63,907 nt of DNA. Origin: Gemmatimonadota bacterium. Its GTDB lineage: Bacteria > Gemmatimonadota > Gemmatimonadetes > Palauibacterales > Palauibacteraceae. The stretch lies in contig JAJDWE010000030.1 in the NCBI GenBank assembly GCA_022825725.1, forward strand, positions 1 to 63,907. The letters are read 5' to 3'. Position numbers and translations under genes: made by a program. Shown here piece by piece: positions 3,581 through 16,580 of the stretch (its first letter is position 1; each line of letters opens with the position of its first letter). The notes beneath the pieces are model-generated. The model searched no databases. It was not told the DNA's origin and was given only the letters and a program-made list of their open reading frames with translations.

Positions 3581-3596
3581 TCCCTCGGACGTTTCT

Positions 3597-3639
3597 ACTA
3601 CGTGTCTAGTTGACAGCGGCGTCCCGTCACGTTTACGCT
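3597..3639 (+). promoter_or_regulatory. Candidate blaI promoter with overlapping dyad
   Basis: TTGACA at 3610-3615 is a perfect -35 hexamer; a weak -10 (TACGCT, 3634-3639) lies 18 nt downstream. A short dyad, ACTA(N6)TAGT at 3597-3610, overlaps the -35. BlaI/MecI repressors bind ACTACA/TGTAGT-type dyads and commonly autoregulate, so this is a plausible BlaI operator, though the arms are short. Confidence 0.4.
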
Positions 3640-3737
3640 CAATTGGGAACGATGCCCGCTCGGCCCGCCGGCGCTTCGGCGACGGGCGGCCGCCGCGGGC
3701 GGCGACGCTGATGGTTCGGGACGAAAGGATCTGTCTC

Positions 3738-4109
3738 GTGGAGATCAAGTTCACCACGCGCGAACTCGACCTCATGGCGGTGCTGTGGGAGAGAGGGGCC
3801 TCGACCGTCGCGGAGGTGCAGGACCGCCTCGGCGACGCGTTGGCCTACACCACCGTGCTCACGATCCTCCGGACGCTGGAGGAGAAGGGGTACGTGGGGC
3901 ACACGCAGGAGGGGAAAGCCTACCGCTATCACACGCTCGTCGGGCGCGAATGCGCTGGGGCGAGCGCGGTGCGCCGGCTGGTTCAGAAGATGTTCCAGGG
4001 GTCGCCCGAACTGTTGCTCACGCACCTCGTCTCCGACCGGGCGCTCTCGAAGGAGGACCTCGAGAACCTGCGCGGCATGGTGGACGAACGCCTCAGCTCG
4101 AAGGAGTAG
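3738..4109 (+). CDS. BlaI/MecI/CopY-family transcriptional repressor
   Basis: A 123-aa winged-helix repressor opening MEIKFTTRELDLMAVLW, followed by the wing-helix sequence AYTTVLTILRTLEEKGYV that is diagnostic of BlaI/MecI. The GTG at 3738 is chosen over the in-frame ATG at 3711 because GAAAGGA sits at ideal spacing and the N-terminus then matches the family. In the known systems the repressor dimer is cleaved when the paired M56 protease senses a signal. The paired protease gene starts 4 nt after this stop codon, with AAGGAG inside the end of this gene. The ligand here is unlikely to be a beta-lactam, since the partner lacks a penicillin-binding domain. Confidence 0.92.
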   Translation: MEIKFTTRELDLMAVLWERGASTVAEVQDRLGDALAYTTVLTILRTLEEKGYVGHTQEGKAYRYHTLVGRECAGASAVRRLVQKMFQGSPELLLTHLVSDRALSKEDLENLRGMVDERLSSKE

Positions 4110-4113
4110 GGAC

Positions 4114-6022
4114 ATGGTCATCGCCTGGATCGGATACTGCCTGTTGATTTCGGGACTTCTCGCCTTGGCCGCCTTCGCCTCGGAGCGGGCGTTGAGTCAC
4201 TTCCGGAAGCCCGTGCGGTGGGCGTGGCTCGCGGCGATCGTCGGGTCCGTGACCGTGCCCGTCATCGCCTTCTTCGCTCCCGGACTCCTTCCCGGCTTCG
4301 GGGTCTCCTCCGCCGAGCCGGCGGTCGGGTTGAGCGGTCTTGCGGTCGTCGCCGCGGCGGGGGAGCTGCCCGCAGCGGCCGGCGGCGGGTTCGATGCGGC
4401 GGCCGTGGGCGCGGTGCTGGCGTGGGGCTGGGTGCTGCTGATCGTCGCCATGGTCGGCTATGTGGGGCGGATCTACGGCCGGCTGCGGTCGGAGATGCGG
4501 ACGTGGAGGCCGGGCCGCGTTTGCGGGATCGCGGGTCATGATTTCCGAGGAGCGGGGACCGGCCGTCGTCGGGTTCCGGCGCTCGGTCGTCGTGATGCCG
4601 AAGTGGATCCCCGAACTCGAGGACCGGCTGCTCCGCCTCGTCTTTCTCCACGAGCGCGAGCATCAGCGCGCCGGCGACCATCGGCTCTTCGCGGCGGCGG
4701 TCACCGCGCTCGTGCTGATGCCGTGGAACCTGTTCGTATGGTGGCAGGTGTCGCGGCTGCGGCTCGCGATCGAGTTCGACTGCGACCGTCGCGTGCTCCG
4801 GCGGGGGGAGTCGCCGCGCGACTACGCGGATGCCCTCATCACGGTGGGGAGCCGCGTCTCCGGGTCGCTGCTCTCCGCGGCCGCCTTCGCCGAGCGCAAG
4901 CCGGCCGTGGAGCGACGCCTGCGCCGCATGACCGAGCCGCTGGCCAGCATGCGTCTGCTCCGAACGCTCGGCGCTTCGGGCGTGGCCATGGTCGCCGTCC
5001 TCTTCGTGCTCGGCTGCCCCGGACCCGAGAGCGGCATGAACGCGCCGGAACCGCCCGCCGCGGCGGTGACACCGCCCTCCGAAGCCGTTGAATGGACACC
5101 TCCGCTGAGGCCCGCCGCGGACCCCCTCACACGCGGTGACCAGCCGTCCTTCATTGCGTTCGACCGCGCTCCGGTCCTTCAGAACGCCGGGGAGGTGTCG
5201 GAGGCGCTGAAGCAGTCCTACCCGGCGAACCTGAAGGACGCGGGAATCGGCGGGAGAGTCGAGATATGGCTGTACGTGGACACGTCCGGCATGGTGCGGA
5301 ACACGGAACTCAAGACGAGCAGCGGCAACAGCGACCTGGACGCCGCCGCCGCGGATGTGGTCGCGACGATGCGCTTCGAGCCCGCGATGAACCGCGACCA
5401 GCCGACCGACGTCTGGATCGCCCAGTGGGTCACCTTCCAGATGGCGAGCGATGCGGACACCCCCCCCGCCCGGAGTTCTTCCTTAACCGGTGAGTACGCT
5501 CCGCTCGTCATCGTCGACGGCGTCATTCAATCCGAGGGCACGAGCATGGAAGACCTCCGGGCCCTCGATATCGACCACGTCGAGATCATCAAGGGGAGCG
5601 CGGCCATCGAGCTGTACGGCGAGCAGGCCAGCAACGGCGTGATCGAAATCACAACAAAGGGCGGCGCCGCGGACAGCGACCCCGCGGCGGAAGATCGCGA
5701 GGACTTCACGGTGAGCGAACTCGCCCCGCCTCGGGCCCGCGAGCTTACGGCCGATGGGCGGCGGGACATCATCATCAGCGGTTACGTCGGCGATGATGGT
5801 ACGCGGAATCATGTGGTGAGTACGGACAACCCGCTCATCATCGTCGATGGCGTCATCCAGTCCGGCGATGTGACGCTCGATGACGTCAGCTTCGGCAAGC
5901 TCGATATCGCCGATGTCGAGATCATCAAGGGAGAACGGGCCATCGAACTGTACGGCGAACGGGCCCGGGGCGGAGTGATTCACCTCACGACGAAAGAGGG
6001 GGCGGGGGCTGGCGGCAGGTAG
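4114..6022 (+). pseudogene. M56 (BlaR1-like) peptidase with TonB domain and two plug-like repeats, frameshifted
   Basis: Copy 1 of a tandem pair. The N-terminal membrane part reads from 4114. Near 4525-4527 a GGG stands where the intact copy at 6076 has GG; removing one G gives a continuous 635-aa protein. The downstream frame carries the M56 zinc motif HEREH, the EFDCDRRVL segment, a TonB C-terminal domain (IGGRVEIWLYVDTSG) and then two homologous repeats, about 5501-5665 and 5831-6001, each running IVDGVIQ...VEIIKG..AIELYGE...GVI..TTK, which resemble TonB-receptor plug segments. Copy 2 lacks these repeats. The frameshift is either real decay or a base error in the assembly; the good conservation downstream leaves both open. 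Confidence 0.75.
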
Positions 6023-6045
6023 AACCCCGGCCCTGGAAGGGATGC

Positions 6046-6075
6046 ACGAACGCCTCAGCTCGAAGGAGTAGGGAC
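6046..6075 (+). repeat. Duplicated 3' end of blaI upstream of M56 copy 2
   Basis: These 30 nt are identical to 4084-4113, the last codons of blaI plus the spacer and ribosome-binding site. Identity continues into the coding region: 71 nt in all, 4084-4154 against 6046-6116. The stretch is a scar showing that the M56 gene was tandemly duplicated with a breakpoint inside blaI. It also supplies copy 2 with the same AAGGAG ribosome-binding site. Confidence 0.9.
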
Positions 6076-7338
6076 ATGGTCATCGCCTGGATCGGATACT
6101 GCCTGTTGATTTCGGGGCTCCTCGCCCTGGCCGCTTTCGCGACCGAGCGGGCCTTGGGTCACTTCCGGAAGCCCGTGCGCTGGGGCTGGTTCGCGGCGGT
6201 CGTCGGCTCCGTGACGCTCCCGTTCGCGGCGTTTCTCGCCCCCGGCCTCCTCCCGGGCATCGGCGCGGCACCGTGGGCTCCCCTCGCGGAGTTGAGTGAG
6301 CCGGTGGTCGTGAGCTCGGCGCCTGCGGCTGCGGAACCCACGGCGTGGTTCGGTGTCGGCGCGATGAGTGCTCTCGCGGGTGGCGTCTGGCTGTTGCTTG
6401 CAGCGGGGATGCTCCTCTACCTCGGGCGGGCGTACCGGCGCCTGCGGTCGGAGATGCGGACGTGGACGCCGGGTCGCGTCCTCGGATCGCCGGTCATGAT
6501 CGCCGACGACCGGGGCCCGGCGGTGGTCGGCATCCGGCGCTCGGTCGTCGTGATGCCGAGGTGGATCCCCGAACTCGAAGACCGGCTGTTGCGCCTGGTC
6601 TTCCTGCACGAGCGCGAACACCAGCGTGCGGGCGACCACCGCCTCTTCGCCACGGCGGTCGCGGCCCTCGTGCTGATGCCGTGGAACGTGTTCCTGTGGT
6701 GGCAGGTGTCGCGGCTGCGGCTTGCGATCGAGTTCGACTGCGACCGGCGCGTCCTCAAGCAGGGCGAGTCCCCGCGCGACTACGCGGACGCCCTCATCAC
6801 GGTGGGGGGGCGTGTCTCCGCGCCGCTGCTGGCCGCGGCCGCCTTTGCCGAGCGCAAGCCGGCCGTGGAGCAGCGGCTGCGCCGCATGACCGAACCGCTG
6901 GCCCGGCTCCGCATTCCGAGAACCCTGGGAGCCTCGGGCCTCGCGGCGCTCGCCATTATTCTTGTCCTCGGCGTCCCGCAGCCCGAGGCGTCGATGGATG
7001 CGCCCGCGCCGAGAGATGCGCAGGCGGAGCAGCCAACCTTCGTCGCGTACGACACGCCCCCGGTTCTTGAGAACGGGGGCGAGATCCACCAGGTGCTCAT
7101 GAGGGCCTATCCGAGCGAACTGAAGAATGCGGGCATCGGTGGCCGGGTCGAGATGTGGCTGTACGTCGACCTGTCCGGCGCCGTCGCCAACCACGAGCTG
7201 AAGACAAGCAGCGGCAACGAGGCACTGGACCGCGCCGCCGCGGAAGTCGTCCGGCAGATGCGCTTCCGGCCCGCGAGGAACCAGGGTGAGCCCACCGCCG
7301 TCTGGGTCTCGCAGTGGTTGACGTTCCAGGTGATCTAG
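6076..7338 (+). CDS. M56-family (BlaR1-like) metallopeptidase with TonB C-terminal domain
   Basis: The intact 420-aa paralogue of the gene at 4114. Membrane segments lie near residues 3-22, 36-56, 99-117 and 192-210. The zinc motif HEREH is at 178-182, and E219 of AIEFDCDRRVL is the likely third ligand. A further hydrophobic segment near 280-300 leads to a periplasmic TonB-C domain (about 335-420; GIGGRVEMWLYVDLSG). Known BlaR1/MecR1 proteins end in a penicillin-binding sensor; here TonB-C takes its place, so the input may be an envelope or TonB-linked signal. It is the only uninterrupted M56 copy and the likely working partner of the BlaI at 3738. Confidence 0.85.
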   Translation: MVIAWIGYCLLISGLLALAAFATERALGHFRKPVRWGWFAAVVGSVTLPFAAFLAPGLLPGIGAAPWAPLAELSEPVVVSSAPAAAEPTAWFGVGAMSALAGGVWLLLAAGMLLYLGRAYRRLRSEMRTWTPGRVLGSPVMIADDRGPAVVGIRRSVVVMPRWIPELEDRLLRLVFLHEREHQRAGDHRLFATAVAALVLMPWNVFLWWQVSRLRLAIEFDCDRRVLKQGESPRDYADALITVGGRVSAPLLAAAAFAERKPAVEQRLRRMTEPLARLRIPRTLGASGLAALAIILVLGVPQPEASMDAPAPRDAQAEQPTFVAYDTPPVLENGGEIHQVLMRAYPSELKNAGIGGRVEMWLYVDLSGAVANHELKTSSGNEALDRAAAEVVRQMRFRPARNQGEPTAVWVSQWLTFQVI

Positions 7339-7433: not shown

Positions 7434-8771
7434 ATGATCCGCCCGACCTCGATCCGCCCAGCCTCGCGCCCGTGTTTGTCCGGTGCCGTCCTCTGCCTCC
7501 TCGTTGCGTGCGGGGGTGACGGCGGCGGCGGGCTGCCCGCCGGCGGGTCCGCGGCCATGGACGGTCCCGACTTCACGATCGTTCCGGAGTACGAGTCCCG
7601 CTGGACCGCCGGCGCCCTGGATGGGGAAGACTGGGAGACCTTCGGGTCCATCGCCGACCTCGTCTTCAGTGAGGCGGGCGATCTCTTCGTGCTGGACGAA
7701 CAGGCGGCGCACGTCGTCGTGCTCGACCGCGACGGCGCATACCTCCGAACCATCTCCCGGCAGGGCGAAGGCCCTGGTGAGCTCGCCCAGCCGGAGTCAA
7801 TGTCGCTGCTCGCCGATGGCCGTCTCGCCGTGTTCGACCGCGCGCGGAGCGGGATTCAGTTCTTCACGCCGGAGGGCGAGTACCTGGAGTCGGCGCCCTT
7901 CGATCCGACACGGGGCGCGCCCGGGGGTGTGGACGCGTGGCTGTCGGACGGGAGCATCATCACGGACCGCGAGTTTGTGGTGAGCGGCACGGCGGACGCG
8001 ATGTCCATACGGAGCGGCTCCGTCGACGGAACGGGCGACGAAGCCGGGCGTCCGATCGCCCGCTACCGCCCGGACGGTAATCGCGAACTGCTCTACACGG
8101 CCTGGGAGCCGCCACCGCCCACCGGAGATGAAATGGAAGCTGAAGGAGGCAGCTTTTCCTTCACCATGAGTCCGGTGAGAGCGTTCGACCCGGGGCTGCA
8201 TTTCACCGCGCTCTCGGACGGGCGGCTCGCCGTCGTCGACTCCTCGGGATACCGGATCAAGCTGGTCGGCGAGGGCGGCACCGTGGAGGAGGTTCTGGAA
8301 CGGCCGCTCTCCCCGACGCCGGTGACGAACGCAGTCCGGGATGCGGAACGGGAGCGCCGGCTCGCCGAAGTCGACCAGAGTGGGAACTCAACGACGCTGT
8401 CCGTTGCGGGACGCCAGGACATCCGCATGCCCGACGATTTCGCGAGGCAGATGCGCGAGGCGTACCGTGACGGCATCGAACGGATGACGTTCGCCGACGT
8501 CATCCCCGCGATCGAAGCGTTGGCCGTGGACGGCGATGATCGCCTGTGGGTAGCGCGAACCCCGCCGCCCGGCGGGGAGGGGCCGATCGACATCGTGACG
8601 GCCGATGCCCGCTACCTCGGCACGATCCCACCCGGAGGACTCCGCATCCCGGACGCCTTCGGTCCCGACGGCCTCATCGCCTACGCCGATGCGCACGGTC
8701 TTGGCTACCCGATCGTCCAGGTATTGCAAATGGCGCCGGACACGCAGCTGGAGACCGAACCGCGACGGTGA
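7434..8771 (+). CDS. 6-bladed beta-propeller lipoprotein
   Basis: A 445-aa exported lipoprotein with lipobox LLVAC near residues 21-25 and a Gly/Asp-rich linker. The remainder has repeated strand patterns such as GDLFVLDEQAAHVVVLDRDG and the RQGEGPGEL signature shared by all propeller paralogues in this window. It belongs to the 6-bladed beta-propeller (NHL/YncE-like) group, whose members usually lack catalytic residues and bind ligands or proteins. GGGGAGGAA precedes the ATG. It lies alone, about 27 kb from the other family members. Confidence 0.8.
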   Translation: MIRPTSIRPASRPCLSGAVLCLLVACGGDGGGGLPAGGSAAMDGPDFTIVPEYESRWTAGALDGEDWETFGSIADLVFSEAGDLFVLDEQAAHVVVLDRDGAYLRTISRQGEGPGELAQPESMSLLADGRLAVFDRARSGIQFFTPEGEYLESAPFDPTRGAPGGVDAWLSDGSIITDREFVVSGTADAMSIRSGSVDGTGDEAGRPIARYRPDGNRELLYTAWEPPPPTGDEMEAEGGSFSFTMSPVRAFDPGLHFTALSDGRLAVVDSSGYRIKLVGEGGTVEEVLERPLSPTPVTNAVRDAERERRLAEVDQSGNSTTLSVAGRQDIRMPDDFARQMREAYRDGIERMTFADVIPAIEALAVDGDDRLWVARTPPPGGEGPIDIVTADARYLGTIPPGGLRIPDAFGPDGLIAYADAHGLGYPIVQVLQMAPDTQLETEPRR

Positions 8772-8865
8772 CGTTCACGCCGCTTGCGGCGTCTACAGTC
8801 AGGCGGAGGCGTGGTGTATTCTCGAAGTTGAAGCTCCGGGCCATTCCAACCTCGCGGATTTCCAC

Positions 8866-10308
8866 ATGACAGGAACTCGGAAACGGCGCAGGCGTGGACT
8901 GAAGGCCACGCTCGTACGGCCGACGCTGCTCGCCGTCACGCTGGCGGCGATCGTCGGCACGGCGCCGGAGACGACGGCGGCTCAGGAGGCGGTGGAAGTC
9001 GCCGGAACCATCGTTGACGACGGGACGGGCGCGCCGATCGAAGGCGCGACGGTCCGGCTCTCCGACTCAGCGGGTTCGGCTCGGGAAACCATCACGGGAC
9101 CGGACGGCACCTTCGCCTTCGCTCAAGTACTGCCCGGCGAATACACGCTCGCCGTGCGGCGTTTCGGCTACGAAGTTCTCAGTGCCCCGTTGGAGATCGG
9201 CTCCGAGGCCCCGCCCCGGCTGGATGTGCGCCTCCAGCCGCAAGCGATCCCGCTGGATCCGCTTGAAGTCGGCGTGGAGGGACGCCCGCCCCGCCTCGCG
9301 GAGTCCGGCTTCTACGAACGGATGGAGGAGGGCTGGGGGGTGTTCCTCGAGCCCGAGTGGATCGAGGCGAACAAGGTGGGCTTCGTCAGGCTCTCGGACT
9401 TCATGTCCACCCTCCAGATGCGCGCACCTCTGCCGCGGTGCGCGAAGATACCGGTATATCTCGACCGGAGGCCGATCGGAGCGGCGGACGGCTCGGGAAC
9501 GAGCAGGCCGTACTCCCTGAATCCGGAGGGAACCTTCCGTTCTCCGGACGACCCGCCCCCGACACTGCTCGAAGAACTCTCCGTGTACGATGTCGGTGCC
9601 GCGGAGTTGTACCAACCTGGGTCGAAGGTCCCGTTCTTTGCCTGGGACGGGGCCTCCATGTTCTGCGGCGCGATCATCCTGTGGTCCAACTGGACCGCGG
9701 AGACGCCCGAGATACCGCAAATCGAGGTCGAACTGTGCGAACCGGCCGGTCGGCCCGGCGAAGTGGCGCTGGAAGGGTTTGTGAATGATGAGGTCACGGA
9801 GGTAAGGCTGCCGGCAGCGCACGTGATCGCCTCGTTCCCGACTTCCGGGAGCCTCGAGCGCGTAGAGACCGTCGTGCGGACGGACTCGCTTGGACGGTAT
9901 CGGCTGTGCGACCTCCCGGTCGAAGCGGAGGTGGAACTCTCGGCCGCCTACGGCCCCCATTCAGGCCTTCCCTCGGTGGTTCCGGCCACGGCGGGCGCCG
10001 AGGTGAGGCTCGGCGTGCCGGTTACCCCTCCGGGATCGGTCACGGGTCTCGCCGTCAACGAGGTGACCCGCCAGCCGCTCGAGGCCGTACGTATAATCGT
10101 CGACGATACGGATTTCCGCACCGTAACGGACCGCACGGGAGCATTCTCGCTGAAAGGGCTTCCCCCCGGCTCATACAAGATCCGTGCCCTGTGTGGAGGC
10201 TTCGACAGTTCCGTACAGACCGTAGACATCACCGCGGGGCAGCAGGTGCGCGTCGTGATTGGTCTCCGATCGAAGGGAACTCCGCGCAGGACGCGCTGTT
10301 CCGCGTAA
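8866..10308 (+). CDS. Exported carboxypeptidase-regulatory/plug-domain protein (no barrel)
   Basis: A 480-aa product beginning at the ATG at 8866, which gives a signal peptide (basic MTGTRKRRRRG, hydrophobic core, cut near TTAAQE). A CarboxypepD_reg beta-sandwich follows at about 45-125 (VEVAGTIVDDGTGAPIEGATV; FGYEVLSAPL), then a plug-like region (PVYLDRRPIG; VYDVGAAELY; MFCGAIILWS), and more regulatory-like Ig domains at the C-terminus (EVRIIVDDTDFRTVTDRTGAF-type strands). No outer-membrane barrel follows, so it is not a TonB receptor. Two similar proteins lie at 11782 and 15348. The role is unknown. Confidence 0.7.
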   Translation: MTGTRKRRRRGLKATLVRPTLLAVTLAAIVGTAPETTAAQEAVEVAGTIVDDGTGAPIEGATVRLSDSAGSARETITGPDGTFAFAQVLPGEYTLAVRRFGYEVLSAPLEIGSEAPPRLDVRLQPQAIPLDPLEVGVEGRPPRLAESGFYERMEEGWGVFLEPEWIEANKVGFVRLSDFMSTLQMRAPLPRCAKIPVYLDRRPIGAADGSGTSRPYSLNPEGTFRSPDDPPPTLLEELSVYDVGAAELYQPGSKVPFFAWDGASMFCGAIILWSNWTAETPEIPQIEVELCEPAGRPGEVALEGFVNDEVTEVRLPAAHVIASFPTSGSLERVETVVRTDSLGRYRLCDLPVEAEVELSAAYGPHSGLPSVVPATAGAEVRLGVPVTPPGSVTGLAVNEVTRQPLEAVRIIVDDTDFRTVTDRTGAFSLKGLPPGSYKIRALCGGFDSSVQTVDITAGQQVRVVIGLRSKGTPRRTRCSA

Positions 10309-10317
10309 CCCGCCTGG

Positions 10318-11745
10318 CTATACCTCCTTCTGCTTCCAGCGGCCGCGGCGGAAGAGGTAGAGTCCGACGACGGCCGACAGCGAATAGGCGACCGCGAACG
10401 ACCAGAAGACGCCCGTCTCGCCCCACCCGGCGCCGAAGGCGAGCAGCGCCGCGACGGGAAGCTGGAAGAACCAGAAGACCCAGATGTTGATCCAGGTCGG
10501 CGTCGCCGTGTCGCCGGCTCCGTTGAAGGCCTGCATCGTCACCATGCCCCAGGCGTAGAAGATGTACCCGTAGCTGATGATCCGGAGCGCGCGCACGCCC
10601 ACGTCGAGCGTTTCCGGGTCCGGAGCGAACGGTGCCAGAATCGGCTCCGGGAAAGCCACGAAGACCACCGTCACCACGGCCATGAACAGCATGTTCCAGA
10701 AGCCCGTGAGGTAGACGGCCCGCTCGGCGCGGTCCGGCTTGTCCGCGCCGAGGTTCTGGCCCACGAGCGTCGCCGCGGCGTTCGCGAGGCCCCAGGCGGG
10801 CAGGATGATGAAGATGACGACGCGGATCGCCATCGTGTAGCCCGCGAGGGCGATCGTCCCGAACTCGGACAGGATCCGGATCGAGAGGATGTAGCTGACC
10901 TGGGTCACGAGCATCTGGCCCACACCCCCGACCGACACGCGCGCAAGCCGCTTGATCACGGCGAGACGGATCCGGAGGTCGTCCCGCCGCACCCGGATGC
11001 GCTCGCCGCGGGACAGGTGCCACAACTGGTACGCGGCCCCGATCCCGCGTCCGGTCGTCGTGGCGACGGCGGCCCCCGGGAGGCCGAGTTCCGGGAAGAT
11101 CCAGAGGCCGAACACGAGCACGGGGTCGAGCACGATGTTGATCCCGTTCGCCAGCCACACGGAACGCATGGCCATCGATGGGTCGCCCGCCCCCCGGTAG
11201 ATCGCGTTGTTCACGAAGAGGAGGATGATGACGACCATCCCGCCGAGCTGAATGCGGGCGAAGGTCGTGCCTGCGGCGACGACTTCCGGGGATCCTCCCA
11301 TGGCCCGGAGAAGCGACGGGGCCAGTATCGCCCCGGCGAGGCCGAGAACCACGGCGATGCCGACGCTCAGCACGATCGCCTGCACGGCGGCCCGCGCCGC
11401 GCCGCGCTCGTCCTTCTCTCCCGTCCGTCTCGCGACCATCGCCGTCGTGGCCATCGCGAGGCCCATCGCGATCGAGTAGATGACGGACAGCATCGCTTCG
11501 GTGAGGGCGATCGCGGCCAGGGCGCCGGCCCCGAGCCGGCTCACGACGGCCATGTCCACGAGGAAGAAGAGCGACTCCCCCGCCATCTCCAGCACCATCG
11601 GAATGGCGAGGAGCAGGACCCCGCGGTTCAGGCTTCCCGACGTGAAGTCCTCGTGCGTTCCCCACAGCAGCGCCCGAAGTGTTCCCCCCACTCCGGAACG
11701 GCGGGGGGCCGCAGTTTCCCCTTCGGGCCGGCCAGTGTCGCTCAA
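10318..11745 (-). CDS. MATE-family efflux transporter
   Basis: A 475-aa polytopic membrane protein with about 12 hydrophobic helices and MATE landmarks: GSLNRGVLLLAIPMVLEM at the first helix, VDMAVVSRLGAGALAAIAL, VGQNLGA near the middle, and FNGAGDTATPTW. MATE proteins export cationic drugs and metabolites using Na+ or H+ gradients. It converges with the plug-domain gene at 8866, 9 nt separating the stops. The next gene on the same strand, at 11782, begins upstream of it with a 36-nt gap, so the two may be co-transcribed. The substrate cannot be read from sequence. Confidence 0.92.
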   Translation of the reverse strand: MSDTGRPEGETAAPRRSGVGGTLRALLWGTHEDFTSGSLNRGVLLLAIPMVLEMAGESLFFLVDMAVVSRLGAGALAAIALTEAMLSVIYSIAMGLAMATTAMVARRTGEKDERGAARAAVQAIVLSVGIAVVLGLAGAILAPSLLRAMGGSPEVVAAGTTFARIQLGGMVVIILLFVNNAIYRGAGDPSMAMRSVWLANGINIVLDPVLVFGLWIFPELGLPGAAVATTTGRGIGAAYQLWHLSRGERIRVRRDDLRIRLAVIKRLARVSVGGVGQMLVTQVSYILSIRILSEFGTIALAGYTMAIRVVIFIILPAWGLANAAATLVGQNLGADKPDRAERAVYLTGFWNMLFMAVVTVVFVAFPEPILAPFAPDPETLDVGVRALRIISYGYIFYAWGMVTMQAFNGAGDTATPTWINIWVFWFFQLPVAALLAFGAGWGETGVFWSFAVAYSLSAVVGLYLFRRGRWKQKEV

Positions 11746-11781
11746 GGAATCGTCCTGTCAGGAGGAAGCGGTCTCGGGGGG

Positions 11782-12822
11782 TCAGTACGTCCAGATCGCG
11801 ACGAGGTTGCAGTCGGTCAGGAGCATGGTGTTTGGCACCTGGTTCATGATCTCGGGCGGCGCCTCGCTGCACCTGTACGCCTCGACGCCCCGAACGGTGT
11901 CGAATTTCAGTTCGCCCAGATTTCTCCGGGTGAACCCGAGGCGGCTGGCCGGCCGGCCGTTGAGGAGGATGAGCTGGTTCCGGCGGTATCGGATGGAGAG
12001 CTCCCGCTTGAACTGGAACAGCTGCCCGAGGTGGATGAACTGGTCGATCTCCGGATAGGTCGCGAAGTAGCCCTCGTCGATGGACTGGCGGCGCTCGTAG
12101 AACCCCGACGTGAGCAGGAACGGATCGCGGCCCGTCACTCTCACCTCGATCGGCGCGAGCGCGATCGCCTGGGTGTTGAGTTCGACGCGGAATTCCGCGT
12201 TCTGGTCGGTGAGGATGTTGATCTCGGTCTCGAGGGGCGCGTAACCGATGTGCGCGACGCGCAGTCCGTAGGTGAGCGGCGGCATGGAGCGGAACGCCAC
12301 GCGTCCGAGCGAATCCGTGACCCCGGAGACGGGCAGCGGGGAGAAGTCGATCTGCGCGCCCGCCACCGGGCGCCCGTCCGCGGCGTCCACGACGGAGAGG
12401 ACGACGAAGGCCGCGTCCCCCATGTCCACCTCGAGGTCGACGAACTTCGACCGGTCGAGTTCGACCTTTCGCTCCTTCCCTCGCCGGGACCCATAGTTCG
12501 CGCGCACCCGGATCTCCCGGAACGCTTCGAGGCCGCACGCCTGGTATCGCCCTCGCCCATCCGCTTCGAGTCGCACGTCCTCGGGCGTCGGCAGCCCGCG
12601 TTCGGCCTCGTAGCGGATCACGACCGTCGCCCCCGCCAGCGGAACCTTGCTCTCGTCGTCCCGGATCGTGCCCTCGATCCCGACCTCGAGTTCCGCCTGT
12701 CCGAGCTGCCGGCAGATGCGGAGGACCCGCTCCTCCTCTTCCTGCCCCATGGCCGGGTGCGGCGCGAGAGCCACAGCCGTCAGAGCGGCCCCGCGCGCGA
12801 GGTGCGGCGCGATCCTCCTCAA
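11782..12822 (-). CDS. Exported carboxypeptidase-regulatory/plug-domain protein (no barrel)
   Basis: A 346-aa product. The start chosen is TTG at 12822, whose bases overlap the TGA of the upstream hydrolase and which gives a proper signal peptide (LRRIAPHLARGAALTAVALA, cut near AMGQ). Two regulatory-like Ig domains follow (VGIEGTIRDDESKVPLAGATV; FVVLSVVDAADGRPVAGAQI), then a plug-like C-terminus (IEVRVTGRDPFLLTSGFYER; QLILLNGRPASRLG; VRGVEAYRC; TDCNLVAIWTY). It ends without a barrel. The SGFYER segment and late Cys pair match the genes at 8866 and 15348. It is translationally coupled to the serine hydrolase. Confidence 0.68.
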   Translation of the reverse strand: MRRIAPHLARGAALTAVALAPHPAMGQEEEERVLRICRQLGQAELEVGIEGTIRDDESKVPLAGATVVIRYEAERGLPTPEDVRLEADGRGRYQACGLEAFREIRVRANYGSRRGKERKVELDRSKFVDLEVDMGDAAFVVLSVVDAADGRPVAGAQIDFSPLPVSGVTDSLGRVAFRSMPPLTYGLRVAHIGYAPLETEINILTDQNAEFRVELNTQAIALAPIEVRVTGRDPFLLTSGFYERRQSIDEGYFATYPEIDQFIHLGQLFQFKRELSIRYRRNQLILLNGRPASRLGFTRRNLGELKFDTVRGVEAYRCSEAPPEIMNQVPNTMLLTDCNLVAIWTY

Positions 12823-13970
12823 CTGCCGGCCTCGAGCAGCGCCTGGAGGAGCCCGTTCCCGGCCTCGCCGAGGTTGGTGGCGCCGCGATTGTAGTTGCGG
12901 CCGAGCGCGACGCCGTAGCCGCTTTCGGGTTCGAACACGAGGTACATGTTGTATCCGGCGACGGAACCGCCGTGGCCGACGAACCGCACGGCGCCGCCCT
13001 CGAGCGCGACAGGACGAATCGAGAAGCCGAGTCCGTACCCCGCGTCGGGATCCTCGGGCGTGTGGACCGTCATGACTTCCCGTCGCGTCGCCGGCTCCAG
13101 GAGTTCGTGTTCGGTCATGCCCATGACCGCGGCCGCGAACGTCGCGAGATCTCCGACCGTCGCGTAGACGCCGCCGTTCGGCACCTTGTATCCGCGCCCC
13201 TCGTGCTCGAGCGCCGGGAAGTCGGAGTTCACGACGCCGTCCGCTCCGTTCGCGAAGCCTACCGCGACCCGCCGCCACAGGTCGGGGCCGACGATGAAGG
13301 TCGAGGAGCGCATCCCCAGTGGTTCGAACAGTCGGTCCTCCACGAGGTCCATGAAGGAGGTCCCGGCCGCCCGCTGCAGCACGTAACCCAGCACGCCGTA
13401 CCCGATGTTGGAGTACTGATACCGGGTGCCGGGCATCGTGTAGAACCGGGTGTGCGGGATCGAAGCGAGGATCTTGTATCCCCAGTCCTCGATCGGCCCC
13501 GCCGCCGCGCCTTCGAGTTCGGGCTCCCGAATGAGGCCGGCGGTGTGGCTCGCCAACTGCCGGAGCGTAATCGGCGCCATGTCGGCCGGCGGATCCCCGA
13601 AGCCGGCGGCCTCGGGCAGGTGGTCCACGACGGCGTCATCGAGGGCGACCGTCCCCTCCTCCACGAGGTCCGCCATCAGAATCGCCGTCACCGATTTCGA
13701 GATCGATCCGGTCCGGTAGATCGTCCGCACGCCCGCGGGCACGCGGTTCTCCGGATCGGCCCAGCCGAACCCCTGTGCCCACAGCACCTGGTCTCCCTTG
13801 AAGACCGCCGCCGTGATCCCGCCGACGCCGTCCGCTTCGACATCCGCCGCGATCTGCCGCGAGAACGCGTCGATGACGTCCGCGTCCTGACCGTCCGCGA
13901 CTGACGGAAGGACGAGGACGAAGAGAGAACTGAGAAGGAAGACGATCGTCGCGGAGTACAGGCGGGGCAT
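12819..13970 (-). CDS. Serine hydrolase, beta-lactamase/DD-peptidase family (S12)
   Basis: A 383-aa exported protein. The ATG at 13970 has AAGGAGA 8 nt upstream and gives a signal peptide (FLLSSLFVLVLPSVADG). The nucleophile motif SISK is at residues 89-92, YSN follows near 190, and HGGSVAGYN late in the chain is the KTG-equivalent, so the full S12 triad is present. The family covers esterases, D-aminopeptidases and class C beta-lactamases, and the substrate cannot be chosen from sequence. It overlaps the plug protein at 11782, suggesting shared expression. Confidence 0.88.
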   Translation of the reverse strand: MPRLYSATIVFLLSSLFVLVLPSVADGQDADVIDAFSRQIAADVEADGVGGITAAVFKGDQVLWAQGFGWADPENRVPAGVRTIYRTGSISKSVTAILMADLVEEGTVALDDAVVDHLPEAAGFGDPPADMAPITLRQLASHTAGLIREPELEGAAAGPIEDWGYKILASIPHTRFYTMPGTRYQYSNIGYGVLGYVLQRAAGTSFMDLVEDRLFEPLGMRSSTFIVGPDLWRRVAVGFANGADGVVNSDFPALEHEGRGYKVPNGGVYATVGDLATFAAAVMGMTEHELLEPATRREVMTVHTPEDPDAGYGLGFSIRPVALEGGAVRFVGHGGSVAGYNMYLVFEPESGYGVALGRNYNRGATNLGEAGNGLLQALLEAGS

Positions 13971-14152
13971 GATGTTCTCCTTGCGTGGCCGACGGGTCGT
14001 CGGAAACCTCCCGCCGGGCTCGAATCCAATGCATAGTCGCAGCTTCTTGCCCGCATCGGAAGCCTTCAGGCCGGCGGCAGGCTGGCGGGTCGAGCCCGAC
14101 TCGCCTAGTGTCTCCGCGCCTAGCCACGCAAACGCACCAACCGCGCGCACAC

Positions 14153-15204: not shown

Positions 15205-15347
15205 GATGAGACTCCGCGGCCGAGGAACCCTCGAAAGAGTGACAGCGTCCGGGAGTGTCTCGCAATACCGGCGCGCGTCGTGTGCGCGGTACGCGCCTGC
15301 ATTACTTTCCGTGCGTGGCTTGTCGACGTCGTGGCGGAGACCGCAGG

Positions 15348-16580
15348 ATGCGAACAAAGCGAGAGGATCGTTCGGAGGCGCAGGCGCGGAGAAGGACTGT
15401 CTGCCGGGTCGCGTCCTTCGCCTTGGCGGGAGCCGCCATCCTGACGTCGGCCGGATTTGATCTCGCCGCTCAGAGCCTGACCCTCAACCCGCCCCGAAGC
15501 ATCGTGACGTGTCCGGCCGAGATGGATCCGTCCCTCACCGGCCTCGCCGGCGTCGTCCGCGATACGCTCCAGGGTATCCTCATTCCGGGCGCCACGGTCA
15601 TGGCGAGCTGGACCGAGGGCGAAGGACGAGAGCGCACGGTCTCCGTGGACGCGGACAGCGAGGGCGTGTACGTCCTCTGCGGCCTTCCGCCCCAGGAGGA
15701 TCTCACCGTGAGCGCAAGGTTCCCGTCCTTCCGCACGGAGCCGACTCTAGTGCGCATCGCACCCGGCCCGCCGGCCGGGTGGGATATCCTCGTGGGCGTG
15801 GAGGAAGGCGCGCTCGCCAGGCTGCTCACCGTGCCCGGCCGAATCGTGGGTCGGGTGGTGGATCGGCGTTCCGGCCGTCCGGTGGAAGCCGCAAACGTCG
15901 TTCTTTCGGACACGCTGCTGGCGGAGGACCGGCAGGGAATGACCGATGGCAGCGGCCGCTTCATGTTCACCGACCTCGATCCGGGGATGTACCGCGTGAC
16001 CGTGGACCACCTCACCTTCGATCCCCTGGACCAGTTGGTGCGCCTCCCGAGCGACCGAACCGTGCAGGTGGATTTCGAACTCAGCGTGGACCCGATCGAA
16101 CTCGCACCGATCGTCGTCACCGCGCTGCGCGAGAAGCGGCTGGAGCTGCAGGGGTTCTACGACCGGCGCGAACTGGGCGAGGCGATTGGCGCCGGGATCT
16201 TCCTCACGCGGGACGACATCCAGGACGCCGGCGCGATCCGCGTCACGCACTACCTGGGACGGATTCCGGGCGTGCGCACCGAGTGCACCGGAGGCGCGAA
16301 CAACAACTGCGTCATCCGCATGACGCGGGGCGCGCCCAGCCTGAGCAGTCGCGCCGAGTACGGGTGCATGAACGCGAACGTCTACCTGGACGGCGTGCGC
16401 GTGATCCGCGACGGCGGCGCCGGCGAGTCGATCGACAACTTCGTCTCGCCGTCCGAGATCGCCGGGATCGAGGTCTATCGCGGTCCGAGCGAGTTGCCGG
16501 CCGAGTTCGGCGGCGCCGTCGGGCGCTGCGGAGCCATCGTCATCTGGACGGGTCCGGGGATCCGGCGGAATTCGGGCTAG
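15348..16580 (+). CDS. Exported carboxypeptidase-regulatory/TonB-plug protein (no barrel)
   Basis: A 410-aa product; ATG 15348 has GGAG at good spacing and gives a signal peptide (VASFALAGAAILTSAG, cut after LAAQ). Two regulatory Ig-like domains (about 50-130 and 150-245; GRIVGRVVDRRSGRPVEAANV) precede the clearest plug domain of the three such proteins: IRVTHYLGRIPGVR, NANVYLDGVRV, VSPSEIAGIEVYRGPSELP and CGAIVIWTG. In true receptors the plug is followed by a 22-strand barrel; here the chain stops about 10 residues after it. Cysteines in CTGGANNNC, YGCM and GRCG may be disulfides. Function unknown. Confidence 0.75.
   Translation: MRTKREDRSEAQARRRTVCRVASFALAGAAILTSAGFDLAAQSLTLNPPRSIVTCPAEMDPSLTGLAGVVRDTLQGILIPGATVMASWTEGEGRERTVSVDADSEGVYVLCGLPPQEDLTVSARFPSFRTEPTLVRIAPGPPAGWDILVGVEEGALARLLTVPGRIVGRVVDRRSGRPVEAANVVLSDTLLAEDRQGMTDGSGRFMFTDLDPGMYRVTVDHLTFDPLDQLVRLPSDRTVQVDFELSVDPIELAPIVVTALREKRLELQGFYDRRELGEAIGAGIFLTRDDIQDAGAIRVTHYLGRIPGVRTECTGGANNNCVIRMTRGAPSLSSRAEYGCMNANVYLDGVRVIRDGGAGESIDNFVSPSEIAGIEVYRGPSELPAEFGGAVGRCGAIVIWTGPGIRRNSG

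Follow-up and report, generated by a model that had tools for sequence, protein, structure and literature searches.

The closest described systems, BlaR1/BlaI and MecR1/MecI of staphylococci and bacilli, pair a BlaI-family repressor with an adjoining M56 membrane protease in a self-regulated operon; the catalytic domain of the protease lies ahead of the last transmembrane helix, and the sensor is an extracytoplasmic C-terminal domain. The locus described here has the same layout, with a putatively self-regulated operon. Proteins that combine an M56 domain with a TonB domain exist as automatic annotations, also in Bacteroidota. Literature searches found no published description of M56-TonB fusions, and a paper on TonB/TolA evolution does not mention M56 (PMC12204202). 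Regulated proteolysis, including BlaR1-type systems, has been reviewed (PMC7593790).

The DNA analysed, hereafter the window, is a stretch of 63,907 nucleotides (contig C28; GenBank JAJDWE010000030.1) from a 3.5-Mb genome of the genus Candidatus Palauibacter (Gemmatimonadota), the order of which is described in PMC10469786. G, C and L numbers denote genomes, contigs and loci, respectively.

A blaI gene with two M56 protease genes

The locus consists of blaI and two tandem genes for BlaR1-type M56 proteases at 3711-7338 (Table 1). Gene order in the genus runs BTAD-type regulator, blaI, M56a (copy 1), M56b (copy 2), six-bladed propeller lipoprotein and CarboxypepD/plug-like protein, followed on the opposite strand by a MATE pump, a second CarboxypepD protein and a serine beta-lactamase-like hydrolase; most relatives share this gene order. 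The BlaI of the window passes the Penicillinase_R winged-helix model (104 bits, cut-off 22.6); its start codon is uncertain, with conserved coding from GTG 3738. Because the starts of M56a and M56b share a 170-bp direct repeat and the two genes split at the base of the genus in a tree, they descend from an old tandem duplication.

The opposite-strand genes of the window (10318-14150, - strand; MATE pump, CarboxypepD protein and class-C/AmpH-like serine hydrolase) converge on the BlaI locus and keep their order across the genus; the hydrolase matches PF00144 at 5e-61, far under the cut-offs for true class C enzymes. The regions 15255-16580 and 8605-10308 encode short, secreted CarboxypepD_reg proteins that end in plug or plug-like sequence but carry no barrel. 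They resemble pieces of a receptor in the absence of the receptor itself, and possibly reflect a wider habit in the phylum of recycling plug pieces.

Pfam searches bore out the preliminary description of both copies as BlaI-paired M56 proteases that end in TonB_C and lack the penicillin-binding domain. Peptidase_M56 was matched at 2e-16 and 3.4e-17 and TonB_C at 8.2e-14 and 1.6e-14 in copies 1 and 2, respectively, and the Pfam scan found no penicillin-binding domain in either. The beta-lactam receptor model NF000326 gave 34-37.5 bits against a cut-off of 400, with the match confined to the M56 part. The catalytic motifs are intact: HEREH and the E/D..D motif that holds the distal acidic zinc ligand are invariant or nearly so in three M56 alignments (A1-A3). 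A PDB sequence search also returned an enoyl-CoA hydratase likeness for the M56 part, which was discarded as a set of weak, meaningless matches. The preliminary description had proposed to examine M56 proteins in related genomes. Of the M56-TonB_C genes with sufficient flanking sequence, 43 of 53 have BlaI upstream. In other families, M56 proteins hold tandem arrays of two to four TonB_C domains; arrays of up to four occur in the 818-residue proteins of L045, L143 and L261 and in L243 and L249.

The preliminary description had also treated copy 1 as one chain. All 11 aligned copy 1 sequences match M56, TonB_C and Plug, which excludes chance as the origin of this architecture, and at least nine other loci of the genus encode the chain unbroken. 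In the window, copy 1 is split between two frames by a +1 frameshift (one T too many in a run of T near 4520), the transmembrane part lying in the frame of 4114 and the protease-TonB-plug part at 4460-6022. M56a is also damaged or frameshifted in G008 and G007, and this damage, like the frameshift in the window, counts against the switch proposed below. Independent frame breaks are seen in several metagenome-assembled genomes (the window at 4520, L059, L053); from the sequences, assembly error, decay and phase-variable reading would each be compatible with them.

Table 1. Coordinates of the features of the blaI-M56 locus in the window
Feature	Position	Strand	Basis and remarks
Putative BlaI operator CTACTA-N6-TAGTTG	3595..3612	+	Kept upstream of blaI in 15 aligned genus loci, including divergent L063
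Candidate promoter TTGACA-N18-TACGCT, overlapped by operator	3610..3639	+	Read from sequence; TTGACA conserved in alignment
blaI, winged-helix repressor	3711..4109	+	PF03965, 6e-30; 80-98% identity within genus
Direct repeat, unit 1 (includes blaI end)	4084..4253	+	Partner 6046-6215
M56a (copy 1): M56 protease, TonB_C, two half-plugs	4114..6022	+	Pfam; frame broken near 4520
M56 peptidase domain of copy 1	4553..4921	+	PF05569; HEREH and EFDCD motifs retained
TonB-CTD-like module of copy 1 (Pfam core 5213-5440)	5144..5443	+	Pfam, AF2, Foldseek
Half-plug repeat 1	5489..5668	+	PF07715, C-terminal half; 60% identity over 60 residues to own SusC-type receptor C80
Half-plug repeat 2	5828..6001	+	Second Plug stretch; half-plug HMM and tree
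Direct repeat, unit 2	6046..6215	+	Partner 4084-4253
M56b (copy 2): M56 protease, TonB_C, no plug	6076..7338	+	Pfam; kept in 13 loci
TonB-CTD-like module of copy 2 (Pfam core 7105-7326)	7036..7335	+	Pfam; 66% identity to own ExbB/D-linked TonB

Conserved dyads and the candidate regulon

The dyad upstream of blaI covers the -35 box of the blaI promoter and is conserved against a diverged background. Its consensus, CTACTA-N6-TAGT(T/A)G, precedes blaI phylum-wide and in other families, often twice, 43-46 bp apart. The CopY dyad core, quoted as TACANNTGTA (PMC7253601), differs from this putative BlaI dyad. Dyad counts in a single genome did not exceed a reversed-pattern control (8 versus 16 strand hits), so that conservation was the sole evidence used. 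Genes with the BlaI dyad were searched for, as suggested at the outset: nearly all dyads recurring across genomes of the genus precede four kinds of gene. These are blaI, an MBL-fold lipoprotein gene (in 8 genomes, where the dyad is a perfect 18-bp palindrome that spans the start region), an RND operon (in 6 genomes, with the dyad over the -35 box) and a propeller lipoprotein gene. The RND operon encodes an adaptor, an outer-membrane factor and an AcrB-type pump according to Pfam; the MBL-fold lipoprotein scores far under the cut-offs of true beta-lactamase models (44 versus 200 bits).

Several candidates were set aside. The dyad on C77 has no gene suitably placed for control, the class-C-like hydrolase and MATE genes of the window have no dyad nearby, and CTACTA-N6-TAGT is absent upstream of all three other BlaIs of the host genome, which removes these as owners of the dyad. 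One of these three belongs to a second BlaI-M56 pair (G000:C70, L111), which has a different dyad upstream, ACGAA-N4-TTCGT, and a different, non-TonB periplasmic domain. In a divergent member of the genus, two dyads 42 bp apart (G004:C125, L107, 103-160) lie near an ABC-transporter permease, MacB/FtsX-like by eye, which is a possible further BlaI target.

The TonB-like sensor and the half-plugs

An AF2 model of the TonB_C plus half-plug part of copy 1, built from 63 sequences, gave pLDDT values mostly above 90 for TonB_C, about 90 for half-plug 1 and 54-89 for half-plug 2. Foldseek searches with this model matched the TonB of the FoxA-TonB complex (6i97_D; E 3.4e-5, TM 0.82 on the target) as well as BtuB-TonB and FhuA-TonB (2gsk, 2grx), and matched the half-plug part to SusC plugs at 37% identity; judged from this model, both identities, TonB C-terminal domain and SusC-type plug, are correct. 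A PDB sequence search with the TonB_C module gave zero matches. An earlier full-length AlphaFold model of an orthologous M56a, made from 11 close sequences, had a mean pLDDT of 43 and was used for helix positions alone.

The two repeats of copy 1 are plug-derived, as had been proposed, to judge from several lines of sequence and model evidence. Plug (PF07715) was matched at 2.5e-10 in two stretches; the 31-residue SusC/RagA signature TIGR04057 was exceeded, also in two stretches, in the intact orthologue L048 (52.8 bits, cut-off 46.2); and in a tree the repeats cluster (99/97) with SusC-type receptors of the genus itself, at C80 and C47, not with the receptors of other lineages. The repeats are not complete plugs: the Plug match spans profile positions 56-107 of 107 alone, the C-terminal half, in which the SusC/RagA signature lies. 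Copy 1 is thus left without the part of the receptor on the Ton-box side, and no barrel family was matched in the Pfam scan. The copy 1 homologue of G006 has three half-plugs. Other M56 proteins of Gemmatimonadota have a single half-plug without TonB_C (L287, L289, L297, L301, L303 and L306). Open reading frames of about 205 codons that match the whole Ton box plus plug of a SusC-type receptor occur at G001:C6:138000, G016:C121:45039 and G002:C46:625; they read as free-standing plugs or receptor fragments.

TonB docks at the Ton box, N-terminal of the plug. A position weight matrix found no significant Ton box in the window's copy 1 chain (p 0.77), and the by-eye candidate DIIISGYV was dropped, as no significant site was found there. 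A Ton-box-like motif between the half-plugs is the best in the protein for 6 of 11 sequences; it is weak (shuffle p 0.016-0.21), its best score being 10.3 versus 12.8-23.1 for real Ton boxes. These results speak against the repeats as a TonB docking module. They also weigh against the idea, put forward in the preliminary description, that the TonB domain and plug repeats of one chain dock together as an internal self-sensing switch. Both modules do share a chain in at least nine loci, and MxcH-type receptors (NF038079) offer a possible precedent for TonB_C followed by plug in one chain. However, the plug is present as its C-terminal half alone; AF2 predicts the domains confidently only one by one, with disordered linkers (pLDDT <50), a pTM of 0.46 and no confident interface; and plug is absent from copy 2 and from most M56-TonB_C proteins. 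We therefore regard self-docking as very improbable.

The bona fide TonB of the host genome is encoded on C69 in an ExbB-ExbD-ExbD-TonB operon, and it is this TonB that is nearest, within the genome, to the M56 domains of the window (62 and 66% identity for copies 1 and 2, respectively). By pairwise identity among 65 TonBs, the own TonB was nearest to the M56 TonB_C in 24 of 31 genomes, against a mean of 0.9 and a maximum of 5 in a shuffled control. A second set comprised 16 genomes selected without prior sight of their TonBs; here the own TonB was nearest in 10, several of the misses being genomes with close relatives in the sample. In a tree of 86 TonB_C domains, M56 domains adjoin the TonB of the same genome across many lineages, with supports of 100/94 (G046), 100/93 (G081), 99/98 (G043), 100/94 (G037), 99/99 (G091), 100/99 (G063), 100/95 (G103), 99/84 (G018) and 99/90 (G071). 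A single clade of all M56 TonB_C domains was rejected (p-AU 4e-37), as was a single TonB_C clade for the M56 proteins of family f6 (p 1e-5), the protease domains of which form one clade (99/93). M56 and TonB labels change 15 times on the tree, against a shuffled mean of 15.1; by this measure, whether a TonB_C domain sits in an M56 protein or a TonB carries no ancestry signal. All four tandem TonB_C domains of G091 are nearest to that genome's own TonB. Matching was not accepted for the M56 protein of Steroidobacter (L282), where TonB_C is weak and just 22% identical to the own TonB.

The C-terminal strand of TonB is the one that pairs with the Ton box in solved complexes (2GSK, 2GRX). In the M56 proteins this strand is lineage-specific and common to M56 and own TonB: WVSQWVTF in the genus, VWIQVPI in G103 and VWVQQR in G018. 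In G043, the M56 gene and the own tonB share a 300-bp tract of 96.7% identity that is confined to the TonB_C domain, with 97% identical codons in the copied domain versus 54% background; the copy looks recent and conversion-like. The two copies of this tract lie on separate contigs (L034:1505-1804 and L150:2569-2868). Own-TonB matching, the rejection of a single M56 clade and the G043 tract together argue that the sensor mimics the cell's TonB and has repeatedly been copied from it anew. This evolutionary signal, read from sequence comparison, is unusual and well supported, and it greatly strengthens what was already a fair reading of the locus, that of a receptor- or TonB-mimic input into BlaI.

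Part of the lineage matching could stem from neutral gene conversion. If all of it did, TonB_C and the half-plugs would be generic periplasmic binding folds, sensing peptidoglycan or envelope stress, and the locus an ordinary envelope-stress BlaI switch. The conversion-like tract in G043, the TonB_C arrays of two to four in M56 proteins of other families and the resemblance of the candidate target genes to antibiotic or envelope defence all agree with such a switch. Against it, matching survives where synonymous sites are saturated (outside G043, codon identity at identical residues is about background, 0.5-0.6, and the proteins are about 60-86% identical), it recurs in most lineages, and the half-plugs are matched to the host's own receptor as well. 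We consider this alternative unlikely.

A proposed Ton-state switch and its relation to known systems

The reading we prefer, to which we give an even chance, is a BlaI regulated-proteolysis switch whose sensor mimics the tip of the cell's TonB and reports the state of the Ton system. We infer BlaI cleavage, the binding partner, the direction of the signal and its physiological cue as follows. BlaI would repress its own operon and, via the same dyad, the MBL-fold lipoprotein and the tripartite RND efflux pump. The M56 protease would span the inner membrane and expose its sensor to the periplasm, the sensor of copy 1 being a TonB-tip mimic extended by two C-terminal half-plugs. As the sensor is kept matched to the host TonB, it most likely binds TonB's partners, presumably TonB-dependent receptors, at their Ton boxes or periplasmic faces, with the SusC-type receptors that were the source of the half-plugs the likeliest. 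It would thereby report load or failure of the Ton system: a change in binding would activate the protease, BlaI would be cut and the regulon would open. Copy 2 would work, if at all, without a plug.

The main objection concerns linker length. Between the last transmembrane helix and the TonB domain lie about 20 residues in copy 2 and 46 in copy 1, compared with about 80 in the own TonB, and linkers this short make it doubtful that the sensor extends to the outer membrane. A lipobox-like cysteine directly follows the last transmembrane helix in 22 of 59 M56-TonB_C proteins, for example in M56a of L048 (LFVLGC, residues 295-301); a cut there by signal peptidase II could free the sensor as a lipoprotein.

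The short linkers leave room for a partner closer by. TonB C-terminal domains are capable of dimerising, and the M56 TonB domain might pair with the cell's TonB, or with ExbD, at the inner membrane; the switch would then count free versus engaged TonB, not receptors, and the half-plugs would serve as TonB bait. Linkers of this length suit a partner near the inner membrane, a like-with-like interface would require same-genome matching, and the half-plugs are copied from the own receptor. Yet bait without a Ton box is hard to reconcile with such a role, and TonB C-terminal dimers in vivo are disputed, which also tells against it. Pairing of this kind thus seems to us a minority prospect.

For the Ton-state switch as a phylum-wide arrangement, in which Ton import state is wired into a BlaI regulon by a protease that carries a replica of the TonB tip of its own cell (in Palauibacter, of its receptor plug as well) and gene conversion keeps this replica up to date, we put the chance slightly short of even. 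To our knowledge, the signals of most M56 proteases beyond BlaR1/MecR1 are unknown. If correct, the proposal would give M56 proteases a new class of input, open a new path by which outer-membrane uptake can act on gene control, link outer-membrane nutrient import to the control of drug efflux and a hydrolase, and provide a natural detector of compounds or phages that enter via TonB-dependent receptors. The approach is general: the target of a sensor can be read from concerted evolution, here from the repeated match to the host TonB, which indicates the sensor's partner.

Compared with BlaR1/MecR1, the sensor of the window proteases is a TonB C-terminal domain, plus half-plugs in copy 1, rather than a penicillin-binding domain; there are two proteases per operon, the dyad is CTACTA-N6-TAGT(T/A)G, and BlaI would control an RND pump and an MBL-fold lipoprotein. 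With the TonB energy transducer the proteins share a C-terminal domain at 62-66% identity and the same predicted fold, but they have four transmembrane helices and a protease in place of one N-terminal anchor, and a shorter linker instead of the long Pro-rich span; neither ExbB nor ExbD was found in the flanks examined around the M56 loci, while ExbD is present beside the genome's own TonB. Like MxcH-type receptors (N-terminal TonB_C, NF038079), the copy 1 orthologue has TonB_C and then plug in one chain (matches 365-454), but at 42 bits against a cut-off of 925, with no barrel and with half-plugs only, it is not a receptor. Relative to TonB-dependent receptors at large, copy 1 lacks the complete plug and the 22-strand barrel, and its chain in the window yielded no Ton box. 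With cell-surface signalling (TonB-dependent receptor, anti-sigma factor and ECF sigma factor; PMC7593790) the locus would, if our reading holds, share the passage from receptor state to transcription via regulated proteolysis. It would do so with BlaI and an M56 protease instead of a FecR-type anti-sigma factor and site-1 and site-2 proteases, and a TonB mimic would take the place of the receptor signalling domain in reading the signal. By its sequence, then, the locus belongs to the BlaI/M56 kind, with a type of sensor that differs from those of the known BlaR1 and MecR1.
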